From Deltaproteobacteria bacterium (GTDB lineage Bacteria; Desulfobacterota; Dissulfuribacteria; Dissulfuribacterales; UBA3076), in the NCBI GenBank assembly GCA_030262715.1, contig JAJSZR010000004.1, positions 1 through 41,694 on the forward strand: a stretch of 41,694 nt of DNA, in the 5' to 3' direction. Numbering within the stretch: position 1 is the stretch's first letter; every line of letters begins with the position of its first letter. This document shows positions 9,528 through 41,558 of this stretch, piece after piece. Both the position numbers and the translations under genes were made by a program. Under the pieces are notes generated by a model. That model was not told where the DNA came from, did no database searches, and saw only the letters and a program-made list of their open reading frames with translations.

Positions 9528-9530
9528 GAT

Positions 9531-11416: not shown

Positions 11417-11449
11417 CGGTTTATATGATGGAGATAAAATAGGGATCGA

Positions 11450-12934: not shown

Positions 12935-12936
12935 AC

Positions 12937-13077: not shown

Positions 13078-13129
13078 ATAGGATCGTCAGTGGTAACGTG
13101 TTTGTTGCTCAGGATATAGAAGGAACACT

Positions 13130-19160: not shown

Positions 19161-19218
19161 TTTACCTGTTCCTCAATTTCCCATACTCTCATACTGATGA
19201 TGGCATATAGTGCAGCGT

Positions 19219-20458: not shown

Positions 20459-20497
20459 TCAAAGACAGATCTACAAAACGGGCTTCTTGAACAATAG

Positions 20498-20526
20498 ATT
20501 GAGACGACCTCAAAGGTCGTCTCAAT
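20498..20526. terminator. Bidirectional rho-independent terminator
   Basis: attgagacgacctcaaaggtcgtctcaat hairpin between convergent genes, followed by T-rich sequence. Confidence 0.85.
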
Positions 20527-20535
20527 CTTTATTGA

Positions 20536-21174
20536 CTAGTGTTCTTCTACCTCTTCCTCCCAGCCGGTTATCATCGTTATGATATGGGCCCAGAAGGTAT
20601 GCCCCAGGGTAGCCAGATACATATGGACAAAGAGGAAGGCAGCGAAACAGCAAGCTACCAGAAAATGTAGCCCGACTACTATTTTTACCCCGCCTAATGC
20701 TATCATCCATTTCTGCGTAATCAGCAGAAGCAGCAAGCCGGACAACAGGACGATCGGTACAAGCATCGTCATGATCATCAGATATGCCCCTTTCTGCATG
20801 GGGTTGAACTTTTTATCAGGCGTGGAGTGGTGCGGGTTCGGTTTACCTCGGAAGTAGTTGAAGCCATAGAACAGCATCTGTCTTATGATACCCGTCTTCA
20901 GGTCATACATGTTGGGGACATAGAGCTTTATCAGGCTCTTATCAATGAACACGTAATATAAAAACCATAACAACCAATCCAGGCACACGAAGATTCCGGT
21001 AAAATCATGAACCAGTACCGCTGTCCTGTAGCTGCCGAAGAGATTAATATACTCAGGAAACCTGATCTGAGCACCTGTAATGCACAGAGTTGTTATCCCA
21101 ATGGCGTGTATCCAATGCCATATCCTGACGGTAGTAGGGTTGAGGTAGATCATTTTTGGCTTTTCCATGATCAA
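20536..21174 (-). CDS. Membrane cytochrome b (cytochrome b561/formate dehydrogenase gamma-like)
   Basis: 'MIYLNPTTVRIWHWIHAIGITTLCITG', several TMs with conserved His ('LVHDFTGIF', 'VVGLHFLVACCFAAFLFVHMYLATLG'). Confidence 0.87.
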   Translation of the reverse strand: MIMEKPKMIYLNPTTVRIWHWIHAIGITTLCITGAQIRFPEYINLFGSYRTAVLVHDFTGIFVCLDWLLWFLYYVFIDKSLIKLYVPNMYDLKTGIIRQMLFYGFNYFRGKPNPHHSTPDKKFNPMQKGAYLMIMTMLVPIVLLSGLLLLLITQKWMIALGGVKIVVGLHFLVACCFAAFLFVHMYLATLGHTFWAHIITMITGWEEEVEEH

Positions 21175-22364: not shown

Positions 22365-22935
22365 CTATAGAACGTTAAAGTTCATGTGCGAGCATACCCC
22401 AATGTTTGAAGTAGCTATGGACCCGCAATAAGGGCGCAGATCCCAAGAAAAGCTCAGATATAGACCCTGCTTTTGTCATTTTTGATATCTTTGGACACAA
22501 GAGTCGAAAAAGCAGGAGTTAACAGTAAAACCAATGCAGGAATTATTTTTTGTGTTTTTTTAATGGCACGCCCCTCCTTCCCATTTAATTTTTTGTTTTA
22601 AGATGGCTCTCCCTTATTACATCCATATGAAATATGTTTTTTTATCAAATTACTTTGTAACCTGCTTGAAAGAAATTGGCAATATCAGTCTGACCATCCA
22701 GGCAAATCTTTTTTGTTTTTCGAGAAAGCATTCTCTGTTTTTTTCTGTAGATCGTCACCGTTTCCTATGCTTGACAAGCCCAAATGGCCTTGCTACTACA
22801 AAGACAAGTAATTAATATTAGAATATATAATGGCCACCGGACAATATTGCCGTGATTTCCTCTGGAAACTACATTGTTATCAGCGGTTTCGTATGGAGCT
22901 TTATTGATTAAAGAGGCCCTTAAGGTTAGGTCGCA

Positions 22936-23409
22936 ATGAGATATTTTCTTGCCGTTTTCACGGCAATATTAACGATTACCATCTTTAATCCGGAAAAGGT
23001 TAGAGGTGGAAATAACACTGAAATACAAAAATATGTCGGCTCAGAAGCCTGCAAGCCCTGTCATCAAAAGGAATATAGGAGTTTTACCAAATATGCAAAG
23101 AAGAGCAGTTCGTTCGAGAGCATTCAAAGGGTGAAAAAGGGCCTTACCGGGGAAGAAATCAAAAAGTGTTATTTCTGTCATACAACGGGATATGGTAAAC
23201 CGGGCGGCTTTGTCAGTATTGAGAAGACCCCTCATTTAAAGAACGCAGGCTGTGAAGTATGCCATGGCCCTGGCGAAATACATGTCAGGACGCAGCGCGC
23301 TCAGGATATCAAGATGAATCTCACAATGAAAGATTGCGAGGAGTGTCACATATCAGAGAGGGTCAAGGCCTTCAGGTACAAGCCCTTGATTCATGGAGGC
23401 GCGCATTAG
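22936..23409 (+). CDS. Secreted tetraheme cytochrome c (paralog of 19219..19657)
   Basis: Signal-peptide-like N-terminus; CKPCH, CYFCH, CEVCH, CEECH; shares 'CHTTG[YF]GK.GGFVS[IV]EKTP' with the paralog. Confidence 0.9.
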   Translation: MRYFLAVFTAILTITIFNPEKVRGGNNTEIQKYVGSEACKPCHQKEYRSFTKYAKKSSSFESIQRVKKGLTGEEIKKCYFCHTTGYGKPGGFVSIEKTPHLKNAGCEVCHGPGEIHVRTQRAQDIKMNLTMKDCEECHISERVKAFRYKPLIHGGAH

Positions 23410-23442
23410 CGGTCCCGATAGGCACGCATTGTTGAGGACAGG

Positions 23443-26139
23443 ATGTTTGGTTTTATAAGAAAGAGTTTTGCAAACAAGATAATGGCTACTGTAATAATCA
23501 GCATAGCTCTGGTTATGATGGCTGAAATTGTCTTGAGAATATACTTTGGGACAAGAGACAGAATGGAGTTGGTGAAAACTCTTAATTTAGACGTGTCTGA
23601 ATCGATCTATTCCGGCATAACATATCCAATGCATATTGGAAATAGTGAGGCTGTCAAGATGGTCTTGTCCGATGTTCGGACAAAGATGGGAAACGTCGAG
23701 GCATGGATATGCGATTTTGATCAAGAGATAACCTGGTCCACACACGAGGAAAGGGTAAAGACCAGGGTTGCGGATTCTATTTCCGATGAGGAGGCCTTGG
23801 CGGCCCTAACCAAGACATTGGGCTCAGGAGTGAGACAAGAGAAGGCATTTGTAGAAGAACTTGCTGGAAGAAAAGTCCTTATTACCATCCATCCCATTTT
23901 GAATCACAAAGACTGCCATCACTGCCATGGCTCTTCAAGGAAAGTTCTCGGTGGCATGATAATAGGAACGGATGTTGAGCATGCTTACATGACGGTCGCT
24001 GCTGCCAGGAACAGGACTATGTTGATAAGTGTTATTGGAATATCGATTATCATTGCCATAATTTATGTGATGGTGACCAGATTCATCAGGCGCCCTGTGG
24101 AGGATTTGGCTGACAAGGCAAAGAGGTTTGCAGAGGGCGATACATCTGTTTCAGTAGACATAAAGTCAGAGGATGAAATAGGCGTACTGGGCAGCTCATT
24201 TAACTATATGATTCAAAGGGCATCTCAATTCAGCAAAAGACTTGAAAGTGAGGTTGCGAAAAAAACCGACTTGTTAAACGAAAGGACCAATCTTATAGCA
24301 CTATTGGAAAAAGCAAACACCCAACTCAGGGAACTTGACAAACTAAAATCTACGTTCTTGGCGAATATGTCTCATGAGCTAAGGACACCGATGAATTCTA
24401 TTATCGGATATTCAGATTTGCTGATAGACGGAGTTGACGGACCAATCAACGAGGAACAGGAAAAGAGCCTTAGCAGAATTTCCAATAATGCCAGGCACCT
24501 CTTGCAATTGTTAAATGATCTTCTTGATCTCTCTAAGATAGAAGCAGGAAAAACCGAGTTAGAAGCAGAACAATTCAATCTAAAAGGACTCATTGATTCA
24601 GTAGTTCCCATGTTTGAGGGAATGATAACCCAAAGAGGTCTTTCCTTTGATTTTGATATCGATGAGAATCTGCCTTTAGTCTATGGCGATAAGAATAAGA
24701 TCAAGCATGTTTTAATGAACCTGCTGTCCAATGCGACCAAGTTTACCGATGAGGGAGGCATAACCATCCGTGCCAGGACATCCGATCGCGGCATTCATCG
24801 ACTTGGCGAGCCTCCTATATTTGCAGAGGTCTGTATAGAGGATACAGGTATTGGGATAAATGATGAGGATCTCGGTAAGATTTTTGACAAGTTCGTGCAG
24901 GCTGACCTTTCTACTGTCCGCCAATATGAAGGGACCGGCCTGGGGCTCAGTATTGCGAGGGGGTTGATTGCATTGCACAACGGTATGATCTGGGCCACGA
25001 GCAAGTATGGCAAGGGAAGTCAATTCTATTTCACCATTCCTCTCGGAAAAGAGGTACTCGAAGCTACAACTAAGCCGATCATAGAATTACGAGTGGCTGA
25101 CGACTTGGCTGAGCACTTCGGTGTGCCTGTCGAGACCTTTTTGAAGGACCCCGAATATGCCGGCAAACCGGTAAGGTGTCACGAATACATCCATTGCGGA
25201 CAGTCTGACTGCCCGGCCCATGACAGTGAAGAAAGACGTTGCTGGCTCATTCTTGGGACACATTGCGGAGGACTGAAAATCAGTACCTATCCGGAGAAAG
25301 TTGATTTTTGCAAAGATTGTAAGGTCATACAGAAACTGGTGCTTGAGTCACAGGGGTTAAAATCCGCTGAGGCAGAGCCGTTGACTGTAGAGGACATCTC
25401 TCGAAAGAGGGTCTTGGCAATAGATGACAACCCGGACGCCATTGATATCATCAGGAAATCTTTAGGAGAGGACTACAAAATAGTAGGTCTTCTCAGCGGG
25501 GAGAAGGCAGTTGAAAAGGCTATAGAGACGAAACCGGTAGCCATTACTCTGGATATCATGATGCCGAAAAAGGACGGATGGCAGGTGCTGCGGGAGCTTA
25601 AAAGTGCGCCAGAGACCCGGGATATCCCGGTAATTGTCCTTTCAATTGTGGATAATAAAAAACTGGGGTTCAGTCTGGGTGCTGCGGAATATATGGTGAA
25701 GCCGCTAGAGCATAATTTTCTCCTCAGAAAAATAAGAGATCTGGAAAAAATGGGCAAAATACAGCGGGCACTTGTAGTAGATAGTGAAACGGATACGGTA
25801 TCGCTGACCGAGAATACACTACAAGAAATCGGGTGTCAGGTAAAGACAGCCTATAACAGCCAGGATGCAGTCAAGTTGATACAGACTTTTGTGCCTGATC
25901 TGATCATCCTTAATTTGACAATGCCCAAGGTGAATGATTTTGATGTAATCGAGTATATAAAGACAGAAAAGAGTGCAAAGAAGATCCCTCTTATTCTTGT
26001 TACTAAGAGGGATTTGAGTGAGAAAGAGAAAGAAGATCTGGACGGTAGGATACGAGGTATATTAAACAAAATGATGCTTAAAGAAGAAGATTTCCCACAA
26101 GAGCTCAAAGATAGAATTGATAAGATAAAGAGTGCCTGA
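23443..26139 (+). CDS. Hybrid histidine kinase: heme-binding (CHHCH) sensor-HAMP-HisKA-HATPase-7-Cys module-REC-pseudoREC
   Basis: 'NHKDCHHCHGSSRKVLGGMIIG'; 'LANMSHELRTPMNSIIGYSDLL'; 'CHEYIHC...CKDCKV'; REC1 'AITLDIMMPKKDG'; REC2 'LIILNLTMPK'. Confidence 0.92.
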   Translation: MFGFIRKSFANKIMATVIISIALVMMAEIVLRIYFGTRDRMELVKTLNLDVSESIYSGITYPMHIGNSEAVKMVLSDVRTKMGNVEAWICDFDQEITWSTHEERVKTRVADSISDEEALAALTKTLGSGVRQEKAFVEELAGRKVLITIHPILNHKDCHHCHGSSRKVLGGMIIGTDVEHAYMTVAAARNRTMLISVIGISIIIAIIYVMVTRFIRRPVEDLADKAKRFAEGDTSVSVDIKSEDEIGVLGSSFNYMIQRASQFSKRLESEVAKKTDLLNERTNLIALLEKANTQLRELDKLKSTFLANMSHELRTPMNSIIGYSDLLIDGVDGPINEEQEKSLSRISNNARHLLQLLNDLLDLSKIEAGKTELEAEQFNLKGLIDSVVPMFEGMITQRGLSFDFDIDENLPLVYGDKNKIKHVLMNLLSNATKFTDEGGITIRARTSDRGIHRLGEPPIFAEVCIEDTGIGINDEDLGKIFDKFVQADLSTVRQYEGTGLGLSIARGLIALHNGMIWATSKYGKGSQFYFTIPLGKEVLEATTKPIIELRVADDLAEHFGVPVETFLKDPEYAGKPVRCHEYIHCGQSDCPAHDSEERRCWLILGTHCGGLKISTYPEKVDFCKDCKVIQKLVLESQGLKSAEAEPLTVEDISRKRVLAIDDNPDAIDIIRKSLGEDYKIVGLLSGEKAVEKAIETKPVAITLDIMMPKKDGWQVLRELKSAPETRDIPVIVLSIVDNKKLGFSLGAAEYMVKPLEHNFLLRKIRDLEKMGKIQRALVVDSETDTVSLTENTLQEIGCQVKTAYNSQDAVKLIQTFVPDLIILNLTMPKVNDFDVIEYIKTEKSAKKIPLILVTKRDLSEKEKEDLDGRIRGILNKMMLKEEDFPQELKDRIDKIKSA

Positions 26140-27808: not shown

Positions 27809-28222
27809 CTAATTTCTCTTTGGCTGGCTATCATCATCCAGGACATTTGTCTTTTCTCCCGAGCCTTGCACAGGTTCCTCAACCTCGGTTACTGGTGCAG
27901 GAGTAGTTTCAACAGGTTCAGGAATTACAGTCGTAACAGGTTCAGTAGTTACAGGACTGGTAGTTACCTGCACGTCCTGCATTACCGAGTCCTCAACCTT
28001 GTGAGCTGACAAATAAGTGAGAACAAGAGAAGAAACCATAAAGACTACGGCCAGTCCTGTAGTGAGTTTGTGCAGGAAGGAGGCCGGTCCTGCGCTGCCA
28101 AAGATGGTATCACTAGACCCGAATACAGCACCTATCTCAGCCCCTTTGCCTTGCTGGAGCAAGACAGTAAGAACCAAGAGGACACATGTAATAATGTGGA
28201 CTACTATTAATACAGAGTACAA
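27809..28222 (-). CDS. secG: Preprotein translocase subunit SecG with Thr/Pro/Val-rich C-terminal tail
   Basis: 'VLLVLTVLLQQGKGAEIGAVFGSSDTIFGSAGPASFLHKLT'. Confidence 0.92.
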   Translation of the reverse strand: MYSVLIVVHIITCVLLVLTVLLQQGKGAEIGAVFGSSDTIFGSAGPASFLHKLTTGLAVVFMVSSLVLTYLSAHKVEDSVMQDVQVTTSPVTTEPVTTVIPEPVETTPAPVTEVEEPVQGSGEKTNVLDDDSQPKRN

Positions 28223-28249: not shown

Positions 28250-29023
28250 TTAACCGATGCGGCAACTGGCGATCTGAGCAAAGCTCCCGGGTTTGAGAGA
28301 TGCACCGCCAACAAGTGCTCCGTCCACATCGGGGAGCGCCATTAATTCATTGACATTTTCCGGTTTAACCGAACCACCATACAATATTCGAATTTGCCCT
28401 GCAATACCGGAATCGAAACGACCGGTCAGCCAGGATCGTATATAAATATGGGTATCCTGTGCCTGATCCGGGGTAGCTGTCTTACCCGTACCGATTGCCC
28501 ATACAGGTTCATAGGCAACTACTACTTTGCCTGCCTTTTCGCTACCTACATCTGAAAAGCCTGTGGATAACTGCTTTTCAAGTATCTCATGCGTAAGTCC
28601 GGCTTCTCTCTCTTCCAACTTTTCTCCGATGCATAGGATTGGAAGCAAGTCATTTTCCAGGGCAGACTTGACCTTTAAGGCAATAAGGCTATTTTTTTCT
28701 CCGAAAATGTGCCTGCGCTCTGAGTGCCCGAGGATTACCCACTTGACTCCGAATTCCTTGAGCATGATCGGTGATATTTCACCGGTGAAGCCACCCTTTT
28801 GCTCAAAGTACATGTTTTGAGCTGCCAGTGTCACAAATTCGCTTTTCTTTATGATTTCACCGGCTGCTGAAAGGGCGGTAAACGGAGGTGCAATTACTAC
28901 CTCTCTTTCTGGCAGGTTATTCACTAGAGGCAAAAAGACATCAAGGAATTCACGGGTCTCGGCCACGGTTTTGTACATCTTCCAGTTAGCTGCCAAAACA
29001 GGTTTCCTCTTCAAGTTATTCAT
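28250..29023 (-). CDS. tpiA: Triose-phosphate isomerase
   Basis: 'AANWKMYKT', 'VILGHSERRHIFGE', 'VVAYEPVWAIGTGKTATPDQAQ'. Confidence 0.97.
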   Translation of the reverse strand: MNNLKRKPVLAANWKMYKTVAETREFLDVFLPLVNNLPEREVVIAPPFTALSAAGEIIKKSEFVTLAAQNMYFEQKGGFTGEISPIMLKEFGVKWVILGHSERRHIFGEKNSLIALKVKSALENDLLPILCIGEKLEEREAGLTHEILEKQLSTGFSDVGSEKAGKVVVAYEPVWAIGTGKTATPDQAQDTHIYIRSWLTGRFDSGIAGQIRILYGGSVKPENVNELMALPDVDGALVGGASLKPGSFAQIASCRIG

Positions 29024-30213
29024 TTTTTACTGCACTCCTCAAGTGCCGTTATGCCCGGCAATTTTTTTCCTTCCAAAAGGTTGAGAAACGCCCCCCCACC
29101 TGTGGACATGTAAGATATGTTTTCTACTTCACCGGCTCTGTGGATGGCCAGATCAGTATCTCCTCCGCCTACAATACTGAGGGCCTGACTATTGCCGACT
29201 GCATGCGCCAGGGCCATCGTACCCTGGCTAAAGGGGTCGAGCTCAAAGGCCCCCATTGGGCCATTCCATACTATGGTTTTGACATTGTAAAGGGCTTCAC
29301 TGAAAAGATTTACTGTTGCGGGCCCTATGTCCAATGCCATCCAATCATCAAGAATTTCCTGGGTTGGCACGATCCTGGTCTCGGCGTTTGCGTCAAGATC
29401 CTGTGCTATGATGCAGTCAACAGGAAGATAGAATTTGATACCTTTGTCTTTTACCTGATTAATTAAGGCCTTGGCCGTGTCTACCAGCTCTTTCTCAGTG
29501 AGGGATTTTCCTATGTCAAGGCCTTGAGCTGTCAGGAACGTATTGGCCATGGCCCCGCCAACTATCAGCTTATCCACCCGGTTCAGTATATTTTTAATGG
29601 CTCCCAGCTTGCCGGATATCTTGGCCCCACCCAGGATGGCCACCAGAGGCCTTGCAGGCTCTTCCATGGCCTTTTTGAAGTACAACAGTTCTTGCTTTAT
29701 AAGGAAACCGGCTGCACACTTTTTAACCAGGCCGGGTACCCCGGTTACTGAGGCATGGGACCTGTGTGATACTGCAAAGGCATCATTTATATACACATCG
29801 GCCATTCTTGCCAAAGCTTCTGCAAAGCCGGGGTTGTTTTTTGTTTCTCCTTGATGATACCTGAGGTTTTCAAGTAGCAGCACTTCTCCGTCTGACATGG
29901 AGCTGGCCTGGTTCTCCACTTCTACTCCAATACAGTCCGGGGCCAGAGATACCTCCTTGCCTATCAGTTCTCCAAGACGCCTGGCCACTGGCCTCAGGCT
30001 GAATTTTTCTATCCTCTGTCCTTTTGGGCGGCCAAGATGCGAGCAGAGTATCAGCCGTGCTCCAGCCTCTCTGGCGTGACGTATGCTTGGCAGGGCCGCC
30101 CTGATGCGGTTGTCGTCTGTGATATTACCGGAATCGTCCAGAGGGATATTGAAGTCCGTCCTCATCAGGACCCTTTGGCCTTTTAGTGAAATTTCGTCTA
30201 TGTATTTAATCAT
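29020..30213 (-). CDS. pgk: Phosphoglycerate kinase
   Basis: 'RVLMRTDFNIPLDD', 'CSHLGRPKG', 'ILGGAKISGKLGAIKNIL', 'VGGGDTDLAI'. Confidence 0.97.
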   Translation of the reverse strand: MIKYIDEISLKGQRVLMRTDFNIPLDDSGNITDDNRIRAALPSIRHAREAGARLILCSHLGRPKGQRIEKFSLRPVARRLGELIGKEVSLAPDCIGVEVENQASSMSDGEVLLLENLRYHQGETKNNPGFAEALARMADVYINDAFAVSHRSHASVTGVPGLVKKCAAGFLIKQELLYFKKAMEEPARPLVAILGGAKISGKLGAIKNILNRVDKLIVGGAMANTFLTAQGLDIGKSLTEKELVDTAKALINQVKDKGIKFYLPVDCIIAQDLDANAETRIVPTQEILDDWMALDIGPATVNLFSEALYNVKTIVWNGPMGAFELDPFSQGTMALAHAVGNSQALSIVGGGDTDLAIHRAGEVENISYMSTGGGAFLNLLEGKKLPGITALEECSKK

Positions 30214-30251: not shown

Positions 30252-33200
30252 TCAGACCAGATACACCTCTTCTTCTATCTGAGTGGCATGCTTACCCATG
30301 TATATTGAGCCGTTTCTGCCGTCAATACTCAGGAAGTCGCCGGAACGAATAGTGCGGTCGTGTAATCGCGCAAAACCCAGATTTTCGAAGACCTGCAGTT
30401 GCTTGCAGCCTACAACGCAGTTCTTGTCCAGGCGAAATGCAATAATGGCTGCATGAGATGTCTGTCCTCCTTTTGCTGTAAGCAGGCCGTCTGTTAAAGT
30501 AATTTCCTTGATATCGTCCGGGACTGTGTCTGACCGGATCAGGATCAAAGGGGTTTCGGGCTCCTTCTCGCGGAAGGACTTGATCTCAGATAAAGCAAAT
30601 ACGGCCTTTCCGGTCATGGCCCCTCCGCTCACCCCAATGCCTCTGCCCAGGTAGTTGGCCTCCAATTCTGCTGATGGTACAAAGACCTGAACGATGTATC
30701 GCCTCTTGGTGGTCATGTTCCGGCTCTGGAGTATGAAAAGCTGATTGCTTTCCGGGCCTTCAAAGGTAAATTCAATCTCCTGTGGGTCCCATCTTTTTTC
30801 ATAGATGAGCTTTCTGGTCATGGATAACAAGGTATTGTAAATCTCCGGAAAATTTGTTTCCAGAGTCATTTCGGAATCAAGCCCCATGGCCTTTTGCTGC
30901 TTTATTGAAATCGGATATGTGGAGACCAGGCCGCTCACAATGTCATCCCCCTGATTTCCGGTAGTAAAATCGCCCCACAGGCTGATATTGTCTATATGGT
31001 CAGTATGGATCGGCGTGAAGGCCACGCCGCTCCCTGAGGTCTCAGTAAGATTTCCATAGGCCATGGCCTGCAGTATCACAGCCGTGCCCCAGTAATCGGA
31101 CATCTCCATTATTTCCCTGTAGTTCTTTGCTTTTTCAGACTCCCACGACGTAAGAATCAGTCGTATAGCCACAAGGAGCTGCTCAAAAGGGTCCACCTCC
31201 AACTCCAGACCATGGTCCAGCGTGGCTTGATGATAAGCCATGGCCAATTCTTTCATCTGGTCTCCGGTAAATTCCCTTTTTTGCTTTACTCCATACCGGC
31301 GCTTGTGATTACTAATGAGCTCGGTGAACATCTCACGGTCCAGATCAAAGGACATGGCCCATGATTGGACAAACCTGCGGTAGTTATCCCAGGCAAACCA
31401 GGCATTACCGGTTTTTTCCGCCAGGCCTTCTATGATTTCAAGGTTACTGCCTACGTTTATGATTGTTGACATCATCCCAGGCATGGAAATGGCTGCTCCG
31501 CTCCTTACAGATAGGAGCAAGGGATTTGACGGGTCGCCAAACCTGCATCCGGTCTGGCGCTCTATCTCCCCAATGGCTTTCTGAAGCTGCGATCTGAATT
31601 CCATGTATACACTGGGCAGTTTCCTGATAATCGGGTAGCACCTGAAGACCTCGGTGGTGACTATTACTCCTGGCGGAACAGTCAGGCCCTTCTGTGCCAG
31701 GAGCACCAGGTTAAAGCCCTTGTTGCCGAGGTGTATGAGGTTTTTTGTCTGTTGTTTCGGACTGTGTATGGGACACAAGATCTGATTTGGATCATAGCTC
31801 AACATTAAGTCAAGGTCCTTGTAATCCAGCCTTTCTTTTTGTTCTCCAAGCACCTGGTATACCCGGGCGATAAAGTTATCCAGATACTGTAGACCAAAGG
31901 TGCCGGAGATGAGGTCTCTCAGGAACCACTCTGTTATCTGATGAGTCAGTTGGATCTCGTTTTCAGCCTCTTTTATAGCAGTTTTGTATTTTGGAAGAAG
32001 GTTGTGTTTGCCCAATTGGCGAACAATGAGAGAGATATTGTCCTGATGGGGGCTTATGTAATAGGCATGGATTATATCTTTAACACCCTCCGACAGCCCT
32101 CTCACTACGTCCAGATACTGTGAAAAGGCAAATCGCCGGACCTCGAGGGATTTTTCCAGCAAGGCGAGATGAGTGGCGAACTTACTGGAATACACTCCAT
32201 CCAACTGCACAGCTCTCCAGAAGAGCCGGAGATACCTCAGTATGCGCACAAAGATAGGCCTCGAGATGAAGGTTGAATCTATCTCAGCTATCAGTCGTTC
32301 GAAGTATAAATTTGCCAGGTTCTCCAGGCGGAAACTGAGGCTGAGGGCGTCAAACTTGCGCTCATGGTAACGGCCATACATTGAAGGAATATCCACTGTT
32401 ATATGCCGCTTGTGGTATATGTCTTCCCTGATTTCAAACTGCTCCTTGCTGAGTATAATGCCCTTAAGGACATCAAGCTGGTCCAGGATTACCTCAAGGC
32501 ACCGTTCTGGATCGTCATCCACATCCAGGACTTCAAGTACTTTGTCCAGTCCCTCAAAACCCTGATTTCTGGCTTCCTCCAGGTGATGACGGATTTCCTG
32601 GGTGCCGAGCTTGTATTTATAGGTTTCAAGCCTGTACATCCGTATGAGAAGTTCAACACGTCTTCTCTCTTGAGGGGGAATGTCAGGGATTTGACTCAAA
32701 ACTTGAGAGAGCCGGTCCTCTTCCAAATTCAGCAGGCTATCTACACTGCGGGTAAATCGTTTGATATCCAGCACATCTGCAAGATGCCGTACGAGCCTGT
32801 GGACATGATCCACGAATGGGCCATGGGCAGGAACCTGCTCCAGGATTTCAGGGGGCAAGAAAGGGGCCAATTCCTCCTTTTGCCTGCTGAACCAGAAGCA
32901 CAGAATGGCTTCAATAAAATCGACAATGCGGTTGTTGCTCTCAACATGGCTCTGTTTTCTCAGGAAGTGAATAAGGATATCCTTGCGGTGTGATATCTCA
33001 TCCAGTTCTGTTGACACGTCCCTCAGAAGACCCTCTGCTCCTATCTCATTGAAATAAACCGGCAGGACCTTGGCCAGTTGTTTGACCAGATTGTAATTTG
33101 GTTCTACGTTGCAGTTGAGTAATCGGCTGACGTCTTTCTGAAACAGGTCTGCATCCCGGATACATGTGCCTGCCAGCTTAAGGTTTATAATAAGGGCTGA

Positions 33201-34529
33201 CAACAGGGTGCCGCAGACACTGGTTTTTTGTTCTATAAATTTTAACCAGACGCGGATGTTCTGCAGGTGAGCAGGATTGCTTAAGATATGCCATTCGGCA
33301 TCTACGCCCTTAATGCCAGGGGGTTGGAAGCCAAACCGGACTACCTGATTGAGAAAAATCTCTATAAGCCTTGTGTCGTCCCTGCGGACGACCTCTGAAC
33401 CTAAGGCCTCGATGCACTGAAGTGCAGTCCTGGGGAAATTGCCTACTTGCTGCTTCAGGAGTGCAAAGCTTCTGGAAAGGATCTCTTGAAGCTGCTCCAG
33501 GTCTGCAGTGTGTATAAGATACAAAAGGCTGCGCTTGATCTGGCGAAGAATTTCCTCATGGATCGTGGACAGGCCTTCCATTTCAATAAGATGGAACGGA
33601 AACAAAAGATGTAATCCTGCTTCTTGATTGGGGGAAGATCGCTCTTTTGATGATACGGGCGGGATTTGACAAGACAGCCGGCCCAGTTCCTGGACAATCT
33701 TTTTGTACTGATTCACTATATCCAGGTAGCCCGGGCGCCTGGCCAGCTCCAAGACCTCTTTTTGCTTGAGAGGCGTTTTCTTTTCGATTTCCAGGTCTTC
33801 CAGAGAGGATCTGAGCTGCTTATGGGAGACCGGTTCGATGAGCCTTAGCGTCTTTTCCAGGTCTTCAGAATCCAGTTCCATGGAGAACTGTTCAATAGCG
33901 CTGTTTAGCCAGTTCTCAGGGTCTTCTTGTCCAAGCCAGTATTGAGAGGTAGCTTTCTGGACTTCAATAAGAAGTCTTCCCGCTGCATCCCACAACCCCG
34001 GAGAGATCTCTTGCCCATCCAGGCGGTTGGAAAGATTCTGTATCAGGCGTGATACAGGGTGATAGCTCCTGGCAACGGCCTTAATCACAGGCGTGTTGGA
34101 TTCTTTGAGCCTGTGGAAGGCATGTTCAATATCAGGCAGTATTGTCAGAAGCTTTTCAGTATCTATTTTTTGAATGATCTTTTCCAGAAAGGCCAGGAGT
34201 CCTCCTGCGGCCTCGGTCTTTTGATTTTCTTCAGGGGCCTGGGAGATGACATTAAAGAAGATGTCCAGGAGTACTCTGATGGCCTCAGGTCCCTGAGATG
34301 AACGGCTGTAAGTAGCAAAGTTTTTGAGGGCAAATGACTTCAGCTCTCCAATCACAACTTCCCAGTTGCGAAATGGATGGTGCAGTTCAAAGAGAAGGCT
34401 GTTGACAGCCTTAATTATTCCCTGATAATCCTTGACTGCTTCCCGGAGAACCTGGTAGCGGGAGTCAAACACTAATTCCCGAACGGCTGTGGCCTCAAGG
34501 TTTGCGCGAAGGGCTTCCGATATTATCAT
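30252..34529 (-). CDS. Giant PPDK-like protein: large N-terminal region, ATP-grasp and phosphohistidine swivel domain, no PEP TIM barrel
   Basis: 'LGNKGFNLVLLAQKGLTVPPGVIVTTEVF', 'LLLSVRSGAAISMPGMMSTIINVG', 'TTGNQGDDIVSG', 'GGQTSHAAIIAFRLDKNCVVGC'; ORF ends about 30 aa after the swivel domain. Confidence 0.87.
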   Translation of the reverse strand: MIISEALRANLEATAVRELVFDSRYQVLREAVKDYQGIIKAVNSLLFELHHPFRNWEVVIGELKSFALKNFATYSRSSQGPEAIRVLLDIFFNVISQAPEENQKTEAAGGLLAFLEKIIQKIDTEKLLTILPDIEHAFHRLKESNTPVIKAVARSYHPVSRLIQNLSNRLDGQEISPGLWDAAGRLLIEVQKATSQYWLGQEDPENWLNSAIEQFSMELDSEDLEKTLRLIEPVSHKQLRSSLEDLEIEKKTPLKQKEVLELARRPGYLDIVNQYKKIVQELGRLSCQIPPVSSKERSSPNQEAGLHLLFPFHLIEMEGLSTIHEEILRQIKRSLLYLIHTADLEQLQEILSRSFALLKQQVGNFPRTALQCIEALGSEVVRRDDTRLIEIFLNQVVRFGFQPPGIKGVDAEWHILSNPAHLQNIRVWLKFIEQKTSVCGTLLSALIINLKLAGTCIRDADLFQKDVSRLLNCNVEPNYNLVKQLAKVLPVYFNEIGAEGLLRDVSTELDEISHRKDILIHFLRKQSHVESNNRIVDFIEAILCFWFSRQKEELAPFLPPEILEQVPAHGPFVDHVHRLVRHLADVLDIKRFTRSVDSLLNLEEDRLSQVLSQIPDIPPQERRRVELLIRMYRLETYKYKLGTQEIRHHLEEARNQGFEGLDKVLEVLDVDDDPERCLEVILDQLDVLKGIILSKEQFEIREDIYHKRHITVDIPSMYGRYHERKFDALSLSFRLENLANLYFERLIAEIDSTFISRPIFVRILRYLRLFWRAVQLDGVYSSKFATHLALLEKSLEVRRFAFSQYLDVVRGLSEGVKDIIHAYYISPHQDNISLIVRQLGKHNLLPKYKTAIKEAENEIQLTHQITEWFLRDLISGTFGLQYLDNFIARVYQVLGEQKERLDYKDLDLMLSYDPNQILCPIHSPKQQTKNLIHLGNKGFNLVLLAQKGLTVPPGVIVTTEVFRCYPIIRKLPSVYMEFRSQLQKAIGEIERQTGCRFGDPSNPLLLSVRSGAAISMPGMMSTIINVGSNLEIIEGLAEKTGNAWFAWDNYRRFVQSWAMSFDLDREMFTELISNHKRRYGVKQKREFTGDQMKELAMAYHQATLDHGLELEVDPFEQLLVAIRLILTSWESEKAKNYREIMEMSDYWGTAVILQAMAYGNLTETSGSGVAFTPIHTDHIDNISLWGDFTTGNQGDDIVSGLVSTYPISIKQQKAMGLDSEMTLETNFPEIYNTLLSMTRKLIYEKRWDPQEIEFTFEGPESNQLFILQSRNMTTKRRYIVQVFVPSAELEANYLGRGIGVSGGAMTGKAVFALSEIKSFREKEPETPLILIRSDTVPDDIKEITLTDGLLTAKGGQTSHAAIIAFRLDKNCVVGCKQLQVFENLGFARLHDRTIRSGDFLSIDGRNGSIYMGKHATQIEEEVYLV

Positions 34530-34547: not shown

Positions 34548-35555
34548 TTAAAGGACTTTATGAGCATTCATGTGAAGGATCAGATCTAATACCCTGTTGG
34601 AGTATCCCCATTCATTATCATACCATGACATGACTTTAATTGAATTATCCTGAATAACTTTGGTGCACGCGCCATCCACAATAGAGGACCTTGGGTCTCC
34701 CATGAAGTCTGTGGAGACCAGAGGTTCGTCTGTGTATCCAAGGAAACGGTTAGTAGCCGCCTTAATAGCCTCGTTTATTTCGGGTACTGTGGCACGTTTT
34801 TCCACCTGGGCCACAAGATCCACTATAGAGACGTCAGGGGTGGGCACACGGACCGCCAGGCCGTCAAATTTGCCTGCGAGTTCCGGAATGACTTTGCTTA
34901 CTGCTGCTGCGGCACCGGTCTTGGTGGGGATCATATTGACAGCGGCGGCCCTGGCCCGTCTGAGGTCGCTGTGGGGAAAATCAAGCAATCTCTGATCGTT
35001 TGTATAGGCGTGTACAGTAGTAATCAGCCCGGAAACTATACCAAATCTGTCCAATATTACTTTGGCCATAGGGGCGAGACAGTTGGTAGTGCAGGAGGCG
35101 TTAGATACAATGTGGTGACTGGCTGGATCGTAGTCGTCTTCATTGACCCCCATCACAATCGTGACGTCCTCATGCTTTGCAGGGGCTGTGATTACGACCT
35201 TTTGTGCTCCAGCCTCCAGATGTCCGCGTGCAAGATTTGCATCACTAAACCTTCCGGTAGCTTCGATTACGTATTCCACACTCATTTCCTGCCATGGCAA
35301 CTGGGAGGGCTCCTTGATGGCTGTTATCCGTATATCTTTGCCGTCCACAGTTATTCCCTGATCTGTGCCATGCACATCGAGGGGAAAGGTCCTCATTACA
35401 GAATCATATTTTAATAAGTGAGCCAAGGTCTGGGTGTCTGTCAGGTCATTTATGGCTTCGATTTCAATAGATTCAAATTCCTTATATTGTTTAGAAGCCC
35501 TGAAAATGCTCCTCCCAATGCGTCCGAAACCGTTGATGCCGACCTTAATAGTCAT
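34548..35555 (-). CDS. gap: Glyceraldehyde-3-phosphate dehydrogenase (type I)
   Basis: 'VGINGFGRIGRSIFRAS', 'SNASCTTNCLAPMAKV', 'WYDNEWGYSNRVLDL'. Confidence 0.97.
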   Translation of the reverse strand: MTIKVGINGFGRIGRSIFRASKQYKEFESIEIEAINDLTDTQTLAHLLKYDSVMRTFPLDVHGTDQGITVDGKDIRITAIKEPSQLPWQEMSVEYVIEATGRFSDANLARGHLEAGAQKVVITAPAKHEDVTIVMGVNEDDYDPASHHIVSNASCTTNCLAPMAKVILDRFGIVSGLITTVHAYTNDQRLLDFPHSDLRRARAAAVNMIPTKTGAAAAVSKVIPELAGKFDGLAVRVPTPDVSIVDLVAQVEKRATVPEINEAIKAATNRFLGYTDEPLVSTDFMGDPRSSIVDGACTKVIQDNSIKVMSWYDNEWGYSNRVLDLILHMNAHKVL

Positions 35556-35776: not shown

Positions 35777-36180
35777 TTACTTTTTCAGGATTGCCGTGGC
35801 CTGATTGATACTTTTCCTGCTATAATCTACTACTTCGTCAGCCAATTCATGCAGGGATTGATCTTTATTCCGGCACTGGCACAATTTGATTAACATGGGA
35901 AGATTTACCCCTGTTATAACTTCAACCTTGTTGTCCTCCAGGAAGGCAAGGGTCATGTTGGCTGGAGTCCCACCGAACATATCTGTTAGTATCAGCACAC
36001 CGTCACCTGTATCTACTTCCTTAATGGCCTTGCGGATATCTGACTGTAATTTATCTATATGCTTAGACGGATCTATAGAAAGGGTGATCATTTGTTCGGC
36101 CTTACCTACAATGAAAACCGTTGTCAGTAACAGCTCATCAGCAAGATGACCGTGGGATGTCACAACCACACCTACCATGT
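35777..36180 (-). CDS. PTS mannose-type EIIA domain protein
   Basis: 'MVGVVVTSHGHLADELLLT', 'VLILTDMFGGTPANMTLAFL'; ORF opens at 36229, but MVGVVVTSHG is the likely start. Confidence 0.9.
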
Positions 36181-36182
36181 AT

Positions 36183-37118
36183 TTATTCCTCCAGTTCCAG
36201 GTCTCTGTGTGTGACGATAACCTCCTCATCAGACCTTGTAAATAGCTCCTTTAAATGTTCCGCAATGACAACACTCCTGTGTCGACCCCCTGTGCATCCC
36301 ACGGCAATCACCAGATAAGACTTGCCCTCTTTCCTGTATTTTGGGACAAGGAATTTCAGAAGGCCTTCGGCATGTCTAAGAAACTCTATAGTGTCTTTCT
36401 TCTCCAAGACATAAGTTCGTACTTCAAGGTCGCAACCGCTTAAGGGGCGCAGTTCCGGCTCGAAGTATGGGTTTGGCAAAAATCTGACATCCAGGACCAG
36501 GTTGGCATCGGCAGGAACACCGTACTTAAAGCCAAAAGACAGTATGTGTATCACAAGTTGATCCAGGCGCTTTCTCGGAGAGTAAAGATTGACAATGTTC
36601 TGCCTTAGCTGATGAACATTGAAGTCTGAGGTATCAAGTAACTTGTCAGCACATTCCCTCAGTCCCATCATATGTTCCCTCTCAACATGTATTCCTTCAA
36701 GGACATTGCCCCTGGGCTTCAAGGGGTGTTGGCGGCGGGTTTGGCTGAATCTCCGTATTAATACCTCATCCTTTGCATCAAGAAACAGGATTTCGAGATA
36801 AAATCCTTCTTCTTTAATCTGTGTAAAGATAGACTGGTATTGATCGAGGAAACTCTCTTCTCGCACATCCATCACAAGGGCTACACGGGTGGGTATTGTG
36901 GAGGCATTTTCCGTAAGAGAGAGGAATTCGGGCAGGAGAGCTATTGGAAGATTGTCCACACAGTAATAGCCCATGTCTTCAAAGGCTTTGAGTACAGTAC
37001 TCTTACCGGATCCGGACATGCCAGTTATGACTATCGTTTGAACCAGTTTGACCGGATTATCAGATGCTGAAATTACCACTGGCTTATCTAAAGTGGTTTG
37101 GGATTTAGATCTTACCAT
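36183..37118 (-). CDS. rapZ: RNase adapter protein RapZ (P-loop)
   Basis: 'VITGMSGSGKSTVLKAFEDMGYYCVDNLP', 'FLDAKDEVLIRRFSQTRRQHPL', 'VAVGCTGGRHRSVVIAEHL'. Confidence 0.95.
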   Translation of the reverse strand: MVRSKSQTTLDKPVVISASDNPVKLVQTIVITGMSGSGKSTVLKAFEDMGYYCVDNLPIALLPEFLSLTENASTIPTRVALVMDVREESFLDQYQSIFTQIKEEGFYLEILFLDAKDEVLIRRFSQTRRQHPLKPRGNVLEGIHVEREHMMGLRECADKLLDTSDFNVHQLRQNIVNLYSPRKRLDQLVIHILSFGFKYGVPADANLVLDVRFLPNPYFEPELRPLSGCDLEVRTYVLEKKDTIEFLRHAEGLLKFLVPKYRKEGKSYLVIAVGCTGGRHRSVVIAEHLKELFTRSDEEVIVTHRDLELEE

Positions 37119-37572
37119 CCATTTCTTCTATTACTTTTTGAATGGAACGTGCATCCGGCGCTTCCATAATTCGCTGGAGCACTTCCTGGGACTTTAACAG
37201 TCTCGAAACCCGGGCTAATATTTTGAGATATGGGGTTGCAGAGTCGTCAGGCGCAAGCAAGAGGAACATAATGTGAACCGGAAGGTTATCCATTGCGTCA
37301 AATGGGATACCATCCGGGCTCCGACCGACTACTATGAGCATGTGGCCCAACTCGTGGAGTTTCCCATGTGGAATTGCCACTCCACTCCCAATACCCGTAC
37401 TGCCCAGTTGTTCACGCTCCTTGAGGACAGATAATACGGTATCCTGGTCCAAGGCTGGCTCTACTTCTGCTACCCTTTTAGCCAGGCTGGCCAGTGCCTC
37501 TTCTTTGGATTTGGTATTAAGATTGAAGATGATACATCTGTTGCAAAGAAAATCGAGTATCTTCACAGTCAT
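37105..37572 (-). CDS. ptsN: PTS EIIA-Ntr
   Basis: 'LKEREQLGSTGIGSGVAIPHGKLHEL'. Confidence 0.93.
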   Translation of the reverse strand: MTVKILDFLCNRCIIFNLNTKSKEEALASLAKRVAEVEPALDQDTVLSVLKEREQLGSTGIGSGVAIPHGKLHELGHMLIVVGRSPDGIPFDAMDNLPVHIMFLLLAPDDSATPYLKILARVSRLLKSQEVLQRIMEAPDARSIQKVIEEMDGKI

Positions 37573-38102
37573 TACGGTTCGACTAATCCCAAAGTCCCAT
37601 CCATACGCCAGTAAAGGACGTTTATTGCGTTGGTCTCGGCATTGGCGAACATCATGAAGTTTTGATTAAGTGACTGGAACTGAGCCGCTGCTTCCTCAAC
37701 AGCCATAGGTTTGGCATCCATTTTTTTTGTGCTGATTATACCCAAGCCCTCTCTTCCTATTTCTGGAGATGGTGAGATATCTGAAAGGACCTCCTCGGAC
37801 ATCGAGCCAGATCCTCTCTTGCTGCGAATTTTTTCTTTATATCGCTTTAACTGCTTATAGATTTTATCAGATACCAGGTCTATAGCCGCCCGCATTTCAT
37901 TCTGCTCTTCCCTGGCTGCTGCCCTTACGCCATCTCCTGAAATCACAACATCCGCTGTCTGCCTGAATTTCTCTACTGACAAAACGACATTTACATCCAT
38001 GGGACCATCGGCATATTTCTTGAGTTTTTGGAGTCTATTTTCAGCGTATTCGCGCAGTGCATCCGAAGGGTCTAGACGCCTAAATGTCACATTGATTTGC
38101 AT
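37572..38102 (-). CDS. hpf: Ribosome hibernation promoting factor (long form)
   Basis: 'MQINVTFRRLDPSDALREYAENRLQKLKKYADGPMDVNVVLSVEK...AAIDLVSDKIYKQLKRYKEKIR'; C-terminal domain 'KPMAVEEAAAQFQSLNQNFMMFANAETNAINVLYWRMDGTLGLVEP'. Confidence 0.95.
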   Translation of the reverse strand: MQINVTFRRLDPSDALREYAENRLQKLKKYADGPMDVNVVLSVEKFRQTADVVISGDGVRAAAREEQNEMRAAIDLVSDKIYKQLKRYKEKIRSKRGSGSMSEEVLSDISPSPEIGREGLGIISTKKMDAKPMAVEEAAAQFQSLNQNFMMFANAETNAINVLYWRMDGTLGLVEP

Positions 38103-38126
38103 AGAATACCTCCAAACGGGGATTTA

Positions 38127-39632
38127 TTAATCGCTAATTTTTTTTAAATTATAATTAATTGCAGGTCGCTTGCGGCGACTTGAGGGCAAAATACCCATCA
38201 GGTCTCTGTATTTTGCCACAGTTCGTCTTGCAATACGTATATGGTCCTTGGCCAATATTTCCACAATCTGCTTGTCACTGTATGGTCGAGTTAGGTTCTC
38301 TACCTGGATCATCTGACGAATCTGTTCTTTTACACTATAGGATGCCACATCAGGGCCGTCGTCCCGGCCCAGACTCGCACTAAAAAAGAACTTGAGCTCA
38401 AAAATACCCTGTGGTGTGTGGACATATTTATTTGTGGTTACTCTGCTTATGGTGGATTCGTGCATCTCGATGTCATCTGCCACGTCTCTGAGTATTAGGG
38501 GTTTGAGATAGGCTATTCCTTTATCCAGAAATTCCCTCTGGAACTCTACAATACTCTTTGTGACTCTGTAGATAGTCTTTTGTCGTTGTTGGATGCTGCG
38601 AATCAACCACAGGGCAGACTTGAGTTTGCCCTGAATGAAGTCCTTGGCAGAGGGAGTAGCAACTCCGTTTTTAATGGTATCGCGATAAAAAGTGCTTATT
38701 TTTAGTCTCGGCATGTCTTCGTCATTCAAGGCAACTATGTATTCATCATCTACTTTATAAACATGAATGTCGGGAACGATATATTGAATCTCCTCACTGC
38801 TGAAAGGTCGCCCGGGACAAGGTTCCAGGTTGGTTATTATCTCAATTGCCTGGGCTATTTCCTCCAATGACTGCCCGGTAGCCTTAGCCATAGCTTGATA
38901 ATTGTGTCGTTCAATATGGTTAAGGTGCTCACTTACCAGTTCCAAGACCAGTGGGTCATTGATACCCAGATGATCCATCTGAACCAATAGGCATTCTTTA
39001 AGATCCCGGGCTGCTACACCAACAGGGTCGAAGAGCTGGACCTTTTTTAGCACATCCTCTACTTTTTCTGGATCACATTCCACTTCTTCAGCTATCTCTT
39101 CAATTGTAGTCTTGAGATAGCCATTTCGGTCAAGATTTCCAATAATGAGACAAGCACTCCGACGCTCCATGCCATTGAAGTGTGCCATCTGGAGTTGCCA
39201 CATCAGATGTTCTCTCAGATCGGTGGTGCGAGTGAAGAGGTTTTCATAGTTTGGTGCTTCCTTTTTTTCAAAGGAATATGCAGGAAGTGAGGACCTGTTG
39301 TCTTCGTCCCAGAAATCTTTCCAGTTTATGTCTTGAATTGCATTGTCTTCCCAGGGAATTTTTTCAAGTTCAGAGGAAGCCAGAGTCGGAAGTTGGGTCT
39401 CGTACGAGGCAGGTTCTTCTTCCTGGAGAGAGTTGCTGCGATCAGTATCATTTGAGGAGGGGATGTCTTCCGATTCAGATTCCTCCAGGACTGGATTGAT
39501 TTCTAATTCCTGGTCAATCGTTTCGATTAGTTCAACCCGGGAAAGTTGAAGCAGTTTTATGGCCTGCTGCAACTGGGGAGTCATTACCAGTTGCTGTGTC
39601 AGCTTAAGTTGTTGGCGAAGTTCTAAGGCCAT
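38127..39632 (-). CDS. rpoN: RNA polymerase sigma-54 factor
   Basis: N-terminal 'QQLKLTQQLVMTPQLQQAIKLLQLSRVEL'; RpoN box 'ARRTVAKYRDLMGILPSSRRK'. Confidence 0.97.
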   Translation of the reverse strand: MALELRQQLKLTQQLVMTPQLQQAIKLLQLSRVELIETIDQELEINPVLEESESEDIPSSNDTDRSNSLQEEEPASYETQLPTLASSELEKIPWEDNAIQDINWKDFWDEDNRSSLPAYSFEKKEAPNYENLFTRTTDLREHLMWQLQMAHFNGMERRSACLIIGNLDRNGYLKTTIEEIAEEVECDPEKVEDVLKKVQLFDPVGVAARDLKECLLVQMDHLGINDPLVLELVSEHLNHIERHNYQAMAKATGQSLEEIAQAIEIITNLEPCPGRPFSSEEIQYIVPDIHVYKVDDEYIVALNDEDMPRLKISTFYRDTIKNGVATPSAKDFIQGKLKSALWLIRSIQQRQKTIYRVTKSIVEFQREFLDKGIAYLKPLILRDVADDIEMHESTISRVTTNKYVHTPQGIFELKFFFSASLGRDDGPDVASYSVKEQIRQMIQVENLTRPYSDKQIVEILAKDHIRIARRTVAKYRDLMGILPSSRRKRPAINYNLKKISD

Positions 39633-39658
39633 AGAAAATTAGAGAAGCCGTAACTAGC

Positions 39659-40381
39659 TTACAGTTTAAAGTTTTCTCCCAAATATATTTTTCGTGCCAG
39701 ATCGCTTGAGGCGATGTGTTCCGGAGTACCCTCTTCGTTAATAACTCCTAAATTAACAATATAGGCGCGATCACATACAGTCAAGGTTTCGCGGACGTTG
39801 TGATCCGAGATAAAGACTCCTATTCCCCTGGCCTTCAGGTCCTGTATTATCTTTTGCAGGTCGGAGACAGCTAGGGGATCAACACCTGCAAAGGGTTCGT
39901 CAAGCAGAATAAACGATGGGTCGGTAGCGAGTGCCCGCATAACTTCCACCCGTCTCCGCTCCCCCCCTGAAAGCGACTGTGCCTGTTGATCCGCGAGGAC
40001 GGAGAGTCCCATGTCATCTAAGAGTTTAATGGTCTTGCTCTCTATTTCCTGACGGGAGAGCCCCCTTGTTTCCAATACAAGGCGGATGTTATCAGCAACT
40101 GACAGCTTCCTGAATACCGAGGGCTCCTGAGGTAGATAGGTTATGCCTTTACGAGCCCGTTTGTGCATAGGCAAATTTGTTACATCTTCTCCATCAAACG
40201 AAACTCTCCCTTCGTCAGGTCTGATGAGACCGGCGATCATATAGAATATAGTGGTCTTGCCGGCACCATTTGGGCCCAACAGACCTACTATGCTATGGCC
40301 TGATAATTCGAGGCTTACGCCATTGACCGCTGGCCGGCCACGGAAACATTTCACCAATTTCTCTGCCTTCAATTTGCTCAT
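39659..40381 (-). CDS. lptB: LPS export ABC transporter ATP-binding protein
   Basis: 'GLLGPNGAGKTTIFYMIAG', 'YLPQEPSVFRKLSV', 'LSGGERRRVEVMRAL'. Confidence 0.96.
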   Translation of the reverse strand: MSKLKAEKLVKCFRGRPAVNGVSLELSGHSIVGLLGPNGAGKTTIFYMIAGLIRPDEGRVSFDGEDVTNLPMHKRARKGITYLPQEPSVFRKLSVADNIRLVLETRGLSRQEIESKTIKLLDDMGLSVLADQQAQSLSGGERRRVEVMRALATDPSFILLDEPFAGVDPLAVSDLQKIIQDLKARGIGVFISDHNVRETLTVCDRAYIVNLGVINEEGTPEHIASSDLARKIYLGENFKL

Positions 40382-40403
40382 AGATGACCTGAGAGGTAAT
40401 TAT

Positions 40404-40979
40404 TTACTCTGCCGGATAGACAACAGCCTCAACCTTTGTTTCATTGCTTCCTTCAACTACACTTCGATCTTCATTAATAAAAAAGATTATCCGTTCTCCA
40501 CTCACCCTGTTAGGGCCTTCCAAAACCTGGGCCGCACCCGTAATAGTTATCTTTTCAGCAGGTTTGTCGTAGATAGCCTGTTCTCCAGTGCCAACACGCT
40601 CACCCTGGATTATACGTACTTGACCTGTGGCTACAATTTTTTTGACCGTCTTTTTTGTTTCCCCCCTCTGTTTTCTTTTTTCATAAAAGACATCGAGTTT
40701 TTCGGAATATATGGTGAGATCACCTCTTGTGGCCTTCACATGCCCGGTGAATACCACGATACCGGATTTATCCATCGCCTCCATCAGGTCACTCTCTATA
40801 TAGATTGGGATCTTGCCCTCACCTGCCGGACCGGTAGGTCTAGTATCTGGTGTGCCTTCCTGGGCCATAGCTATCGAACAGTGGAAATGCATAAAAATAA
40901 GGATGCAAAATAAGGTAGTTGAGGCTACATTTCCAACCTTGCTCATTCGCTTGCAGATACATAAATTTTGACACTTCAT
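40404..40979 (-). CDS. lptA: LPS transport periplasmic protein LptA
   Basis: OstA-like repeats 'IYIESDLMEAMDKSGIVVFTGHVKATRGDLTIYSEKLDVFY'; adjacent to lptB. Confidence 0.9.
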   Translation of the reverse strand: MKCQNLCICKRMSKVGNVASTTLFCILIFMHFHCSIAMAQEGTPDTRPTGPAGEGKIPIYIESDLMEAMDKSGIVVFTGHVKATRGDLTIYSEKLDVFYEKRKQRGETKKTVKKIVATGQVRIIQGERVGTGEQAIYDKPAEKITITGAAQVLEGPNRVSGERIIFFINEDRSVVEGSNETKVEAVVYPAE

Positions 40980-40991
40980 TATTGATTCCTC

Positions 40992-41558
40992 TTAAAGTTC
41001 CAGTTCGCCATTTTCTGGAAGGACAGCCGTCTGTCTCTTTACTGTAAGCTTACCCTTTTGAAGGTCGTACTCAAGCCCCTTGCCCTCCATTTCTAGTGCA
41101 TCTCCTTTGATAAGTACTTTGTCCCTGGTCCAGATAAGTTTTTTCTTCTGACTGAAGTGCATGCTTTCTGAAAAGAGCGTAGAACCGTTTTCAAAGTGTA
41201 TTTTTACATTGCCATTCAGTGACATTTCATCGTCATCGATTCTGTATATGCCTGAATCAGCAATAACAATAACATGACTTCCTCCAGTAGGGGAAAATTT
41301 TATTTTTATCCTTTCCAGATCCATGATATTTTTGTCTTCATAGAGCCGGGCTACATTTGCCTTTAGGACCCACTGGGTCTTTTCGCCTATATTTTTCGTA
41401 TAACTGACACCTTCAAAGGTAAGATCAGCCTTCATTTCTCTGAGGTTTGTGGTCCATAGATCACTGGTATTCTTGCTTTGCTGCCAAGGCTTCCAGAGAG
41501 CTATCAATAAAAGGACGCTGGCAAGTATCCAGAATAGATGTCGTTGTTCGAGTTTCAT
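40992..41558 (-). CDS. lptC: LPS export system protein LptC
   Basis: Single N-terminal TM; 'FEGVSYTKNIGEKTQWVLKANVARLYEDKNIMDLERIKIKF'; adjacent to lptA. Confidence 0.87.
   Translation of the reverse strand: MKLEQRHLFWILASVLLLIALWKPWQQSKNTSDLWTTNLREMKADLTFEGVSYTKNIGEKTQWVLKANVARLYEDKNIMDLERIKIKFSPTGGSHVIVIADSGIYRIDDDEMSLNGNVKIHFENGSTLFSESMHFSQKKKLIWTRDKVLIKGDALEMEGKGLEYDLQKGKLTVKRQTAVLPENGELEL

Follow-up and report, generated by a model that had tools for sequence, protein, structure and literature searches.

Among dikinases that have parted from pyruvate is VadK (Rv1127c) of Mycobacterium tuberculosis, a PPDK that lacks the pyruvate domain and undergoes autophosphorylation at its His; its gene adjoins those of the methylcitrate cycle, it interacts with their products and tunes flux, and its genome contains no lone barrel (PMC13400623). 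Other dikinases, RPH and HpeHI, accept small molecules (PMC4844700, PMC12167813). Here we describe a family of much larger proteins, designated BIG, from a 41,694-nucleotide stretch of a Deltaproteobacteria bacterium (contig JAJSZR010000004.1, positions 1 to 41,694), the whole of which is referred to as the window. Its member in the window, BIG1, joins a PPDK-type ATP-grasp and His swivel to an N-terminal region of some 920 residues, lies next to a gene for GAPDH, and belongs to a family that is found almost exclusively in genomes that also encode a second, divergent GAPDH (Gap2). The gene and the parts of its product are as follows.

30252..34529, minus strand: BIG1, a PPDK-derived ATP-grasp/His-swivel protein of 1425 aa, with an ATG start
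33333..34529, minus strand: residues 1-399, predicted to be helical and solenoid-like, weakly conserved (AlphaFold2 model, pLDDT 86.8; conservation)
32880..33332, minus strand: residues 400-550, conserved block A, a candidate site for an acceptor or a partner (28 near-invariant positions per 100)
32295..32432, minus strand: residues 700-745, conserved block B, a predicted beta-hairpin (39 near-invariant positions per 100; strands 701-708 and 715-722)
30705..31757, minus strand: residues 925-1275, PPDK-type ATP-grasp with K937, R1009, E1251, E1253, Q1268 and R1270 (Pfam, PPDK alignment, conservation)
30279..30662, minus strand: residues 1290-1417, His swivel domain with the motif GGQTSHAAIIA (Pfam, PPDK alignment, conservation)
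30453..30455, minus strand: codon of His1359, the predicted phospho-accepting residue, equivalent to PPDK His455 and kept in 104/104 family members

Judged from its sequence relationships, BIG1 is a genuine reading frame of long standing, because full-length homologues occur at 33-90% identity and divergence from a 90%-identical relative is largely silent (dN 0.047, dS 0.337). Its only Pfam matches are to PF01326 (best stretch 977-1218, E 1.7e-25) and PF00391 (1327-1407, E 5.9e-16), and its top NCBIfam model, that of PPDK (TIGR01828), scores 374 bits, far below the 843-bit equivalog cut-off. Residues 931-1417 align to residues 17-512 of C. symbiosum PPDK (1kbl) with an E value of 4.9e-79, and the kinase part, as modelled by AlphaFold2 for residues 227-1425 (mean pLDDT 86.8), superposes on the same structure at 3.1 A over 538 columns. 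BIG1 stops at the position where PPDK starts the linker that leads to its TIM barrel, and the phosphoenolpyruvate (PEP)/pyruvate barrel itself is absent in cis, according to both Pfam and the alignment to PPDK. The initial annotation, made from the window's letters, had described a PPDK-like protein of this size with an ATP-grasp and a His swivel but no PEP barrel, which is borne out, and had proposed a role other than on pyruvate, which is likewise supported.

Two features could nonetheless be reconciled with an ordinary PPDK divided between two genes, in which the TIM barrel is the product of another gene and joins the ATP-grasp and swivel of BIG to make up the enzyme: the strong resemblance of residues 925-1420 to PPDK, and the precedent of HpeHI, a dikinase made of two proteins (PMC12167813). 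The initial annotation had itself named such a partner as the finding that would speak against it. When PF02896 was searched in 16 BIG-bearing genomes, including the window's own, no lone barrel was found; every match lay in an open reading frame of at least 589 aa, the size of a complete PtsI, PpsA or PPDK, and one complete genome in which BIG and Gap2 are both present (G014) has no PF02896 protein. We consider a split PPDK highly improbable.

The active site has been retained with little latitude. K937, R1009, E1253, Q1268, R1270 and H1359, the equivalents of PPDK K22, R92, E323, Q335, R337 and His455, are identical in 100% of 104 aligned homologues, and E1251, the counterpart of PPDK D321, is Glu in 99% of them. 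The roles of these residues we take to be those generally assigned to them in PPDK. With the His and every ATP-site residue examined conserved, we infer that BIG autophosphorylates in the manner of PPDK and VadK.

The N-terminal region of about 920 aa has no match in Pfam (11 members scanned) or NCBIfam, and no sequence relative in the PDB even when searched as a 71-sequence profile. AlphaFold2 models it with confidence (pLDDT 86.8) as almost entirely helical, with a single long beta-hairpin at 701-722. Foldseek retrieved with this model only generic helical-repeat proteins, at query-length-normalised TM (template modelling) scores of at most ~0.18, and thus neither a fold relative nor a fold relation to any phosphoglycerate-binding enzyme. 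A large N-terminal region devoid of known domains had been annotated correctly, and the match to a known unrelated enzyme that would have told against the proposal was not encountered by Pfam, PDB profile or Foldseek. Conservation is concentrated in two blocks, near-invariant positions per 100 numbering 2 in residues 1-399, 28 in residues 400-550 and 39 in residues 700-745, compared with 22 in the ATP-grasp. The invariant residues of block A (H421, R426, D459, D461, E499, R503, D510, E511, R515, R524, K525, H528, E530) and block B (E702, K707, R708, H709, S716, Y718, Y721, E723, K725, R734) are mostly Arg, Lys, His, Asp and Glu. Because these two charged blocks exceed the ATP-grasp in conservation, they suggest a binding or active site borne on the solenoid, and lend support to the earlier conjecture of an N-terminal binding or acceptor module. 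In two genomes the BIG gene is broken within this region, near residue 494 by an in-frame TAA (G301, contig 9) and near residue 618 between two frames (G065, contig 1), so that either the gene is naturally split there or the sequence is in error.

Glucans and free sugars had been among the acceptors first envisaged. Glucan water dikinase is generally understood to use the same His-swivel chemistry, and BIG might by analogy be a kinase for glucans or another polymer. No carbohydrate-binding Pfam domain was found among the 11 members, both sequence and fold place the ATP-grasp with PPDK, and the genomic link, documented below, is to GAPDH in particular, most of all to Gap2; we therefore find this acceptor class unsupported and a polymer kinase scarcely credible. 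RPH and HpeI give much weaker matches to BIG than PPDK does; none of the matches reaches across the N-terminal module.

The distribution of the family was surveyed in 395 genomes of one phylum, using the N-terminal region as query. BIG was present in 115 (~30%), a count from which three weak hits (G046, G312, G386) were left out, and Gap2 in 116, of which 114 were also BIG-positive. The exceptions (G005, 79% complete; G078, 62%; G113, 76%) are all incomplete metagenome-assembled genomes (MAGs). Co-occurrence on this scale yields a Fisher's p of 1e-96, uncorrected for phylogeny; a better argument is the pattern within families of mixed content (f10, f18, f41, f56), whose genomes hold both BIG and Gap2 or neither, save the incomplete G113. 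The link also persists over distance, as in G195, where BIG lies at 2.42 Mb and gap2 at 0.04 Mb. Titled BIG loci derive from MAGs of Deltaproteobacteria/Desulfobacterota, including Desulfobulbaceae, Desulfocapsaceae and Desulfoarculaceae, and no match was found on plasmids. Two matches in Bacteroidota were confined to the PPDK part: L029 is an ordinary full-length PPDK, and L030 aligns to the same part of the query.

Physical proximity follows the same association. Of 80 loci, each from a different genome, 69 have gap, gap2 or both no more than 1.5 kb from BIG, opposite-strand cases included. The gene orders comprise gap-BIG-gap2-pgk-tpiA-secG, BIG-gap2, gap-BIG and convergent BIG/gap2. Genomes whose BIG locus has no adjacent GAPDH gene still carry gap2. 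The initial annotation had placed BIG1 between gap and pgk; most relatives adjoin a gap and gap2 pair instead of pgk. Mirror-tree correlations of 0.83-0.89 do not tell gap and gap2 apart as partners of BIG.

Gap2 is a divergent type I GAPDH of 410-450 aa that falls below the TIGR01534 cut-off and forms a separate branch with insertions. That of the window's genome has 423 aa with short insertions and is encoded outside the window, on another contig (contig 43; L145:8510-9778). The catalytic Cys196 and His226 are present in 100% of 61 sequences, and the Asp that specifies NAD, invariant as D37 in 68 Gap sequences, is replaced in 61/61 Gap2 sequences by an invariant Gly-Arg. In mutants of other GAPDHs, loss of this Asp, with a positive charge in its stead, permits NADP binding (PMC9145139). 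Because the substitution is without exception, Gap2 is probably an NADP(H)-dependent GAPDH. Cells bearing BIG appear, then, to have one NAD-type and one NADP-type GAPDH, an arrangement classically taken to mean that glycolysis and gluconeogenesis each have their own enzyme. One complete genome (G101) carries two gap2-pgk copies with identical scores, at C1:505485 and C1:1778713, as if recently duplicated.

These observations are most readily accommodated, at a rough probability of 0.45, if BIG is a PPDK-derived histidine dikinase devoted to the GAPDH step, which, with or without its phosphoryl group, would bind GAPDHs or modify them and thereby set the balance between glycolytic and gluconeogenic flux. 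In such a scheme a PPDK would have shed its pyruvate/PEP barrel and acquired the ~920-aa module; the ATP-grasp would charge His1359 from ATP, as in PPDK, and the swivel would deliver the phosphoryl group to the N-terminal module or a partner bound there, rather than to pyruvate. That partner would be the GAPDH step, represented by the NAD-type Gap and above all by the obligate partner Gap2, and BIG, phosphorylated or not, would tune its flux by binding or modification, as VadK does for the methylcitrate cycle. An action on Gap and Gap2 as a regulator is at least as likely as one as a metabolite kinase, and on balance likelier.

Several points weigh against this proposal. Interaction with a GAPDH, or its phosphorylation, is deduced from gene adjacency and co-occurrence, and neither gene neighbourhood nor co-inheritance can distinguish regulation from catalysis. 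GAPDH genes are missing alongside BIG in 10 of the 80 loci (one further locus ends too early to tell), and in the window's own genus BIG1 is accompanied by gap alone, gap2 being found elsewhere beside a second BIG and not as the immediate neighbour of BIG1. Moreover, a solenoid that passively bound proteins would not need as many invariant charged residues as blocks A and B hold, and the two blocks could constitute a small-molecule site.

This last point leads to an alternative in which the two blocks form the active site of a metabolite dikinase, with a small phosphorylated acceptor from lower glycolysis such as 3-phosphoglycerate or 1,3-bisphosphoglycerate; BIG and Gap2 would drive the gluconeogenic conversion of 3-phosphoglycerate to glyceraldehyde 3-phosphate or, reversed, regain ATP from AMP and PPi. 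The conservation of blocks 400-550 and 700-745 above that of the ATP-grasp, their richness in Arg, Lys and His, and the obligate partnership with Gap2 would all be in order for such an enzyme, as would the precedents of RPH (PMC4844700) and HpeHI (PMC12167813), small-molecule dikinases with new acceptor modules. It may also draw on a protein of ~555 aa, glycogen synthase-like by sequence, that occurs near BIG in 8 loci (for example near L105:2788), upstream of gap-BIG in several lineages, and suggests a tie to glycogen or gluconeogenesis. We nevertheless judge a metabolite dikinase unlikely, in view of the missing fold relation to phosphoglycerate-binding enzymes and of two further results. 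Pgk is encoded in 28/28 BIG genomes tested, so that no glycolytic step is missing, a replacement of Pgk by BIG is rejected, and the proposed reaction is already covered. Recycling of AMP and PPi from sulfate activation was rejected as a general tie for the lack of aprA in 32/115 BIG genomes, including the window's own; presence of aprA in the other 83/115 amounts to an association far looser than that of Gap2. The absence of an aprA match from the window's genome, a MAG 94% complete, sets it apart from most genomes of its order.

A particular form of this chemistry would make BIG and Gap2 a two-protein gluconeogenic module. Charged by ATP, perhaps together with Pi, the phospho-swivel would act within the N-terminal site on 3-phosphoglycerate, or on an intermediate bound to GAPDH, phosphorylating it and passing 1,3-bisphosphoglycerate to an NADPH-dependent GAPDH. 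BIG would then be a phosphoglycerate dikinase, offering a new route past the thermodynamic barrier of the step, parallel to Pgk; we regard it as a long shot.

The solenoid-like model and the location of BIG inside a gap-gap2-pgk-tpiA cluster would also suit a scaffold or sensor, on which the N-terminal region assembles Gap, Gap2 and perhaps Pgk while the kinase part senses the ATP/AMP/PPi state and passes no phosphoryl group on; binding, and not transfer, is indeed what the authors of the VadK study propose for that protein (PMC13400623). The full conservation of the catalytic His and ATP site, together with the very high conservation of the charged blocks, suggests chemistry, and makes a scaffold without phosphotransfer rather improbable.

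Returning to a regulator of the GAPDH step, the history of the family in the window's genome is informative. Two BIGs are present there: BIG1, adjoining gap, and BIG2, 46-47% identical, which a different contig carries directly ahead of gap2. For BIG2 (65%) and for its gap2 (77%) alike, the nearest relatives lie in a different family of the phylum, and within the window's family the pair has been inherited together. BIG1 and the BIG2-gap2 pair coexist in most genomes of the genus, and in the sister genus g248 only the BIG2 type occurs, so that BIG1 would be the copy that lost its adjacent gap2 and remained with the NAD-type gap; its N-terminal part is 81-89% conserved within the genus. A distant clade of BIGs in family f62 (L143:5606-9868, minus strand; L144:5061-9515, plus strand) shows 28-30% identity and keeps the His as GAH. 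In both genomes a GAF/sigma-54 activator without a receiver domain directly follows BIG, operon-like, in place of a GAPDH gene, and Gap2 was not detected in either; this pairing hints at a regulatory role.

In the window, BIG1 stands within a tight gap-BIG-pgk-tpiA-secG run, all on the minus strand, between gap and pgk-tpiA-secG as had been annotated.

34548..35555, minus strand: gap, NAD-type GAPDH with the NAD-pocket D37 kept, 18 bp upstream of BIG1 (TIGR01534, over cut-off)
29020..30213, minus strand: pgk, 38 bp downstream of BIG1
28250..29023, minus strand: tpiA, overlapping pgk by 4 bp (homologue search)
27809..28222, minus strand: secG (sequence and conserved position after tpiA)

Directly upstream of gap is a cluster of lptC-lptA-lptB-rpoN-hpf-ptsN-rapZ and a mannose-type EIIA gene (35777-41558, minus strand), kept upstream of gap-BIG in many relatives. 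Elsewhere in the window, inspection by eye indicated an Mnh/Mrp-like multi-subunit Na+/H+ antiporter cluster with several large membrane subunits (7189-15158, plus strand) and multihaem-type, CxxCH-rich proteins beside sensor kinases with CxxCH in their sensor part (17466-26139).

Literature searches for a BIG protein found nothing, and the family has until now been hidden behind partial 'PEP/pyruvate-binding' matches. Its kinase core has known counterparts; for the N-terminal module, and for the obligate pairing with Gap2, the searches turned up no earlier description. The co-inheritance of BIG and Gap2 points to unrecognised control or chemistry at a central carbon step, in anaerobes that switch between gluconeogenesis and glycolysis.

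Compared with PPDK (TIGR01828, 1kbl), BIG shares the ATP-grasp and His swivel at ~33% identity, with PPDK-type catalytic residues and the TSH motif, and differs in lacking the TIM barrel, both in cis and as a lone barrel in the 16 genomes searched, and in its ~920 extra N-terminal residues. In RPH and HpeHI, too, an ATP-grasp and a His swivel are combined with a module for an acceptor other than pyruvate, but their acceptor domains are unrelated to that of BIG, whose ATP-grasp is of the PPDK type; from glucan water dikinase BIG is set apart by the absence of a carbohydrate-binding Pfam domain. The pairing of an NAD-type with an NADP-type pocket recalls GapA and GapB of Bacillus subtilis, which reportedly have opposite roles with NAD and NADP (J Biol Chem 275:14031); Gap2, however, is a separate divergent branch with insertions, and we know of no BIG-like protein in that system. 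The closest functional precedent, by analogy, is VadK, which has a PPDK-derived core, has lost the barrel and kept the catalytic His, and is encoded beside the enzymes on which it acts, as BIG is beside GAPDHs. VadK consists of the two PPDK domains alone (~490 aa), whereas BIG reaches 1425 aa with its N-terminal module, and the one is tied to the methylcitrate cycle, the other to GAPDHs. BIG would be the second independent case, after VadK, of a PPDK minus its pyruvate half redirected to neighbouring metabolic enzymes, which turns PPDK as raw material for histidine kinases into a testable general idea.

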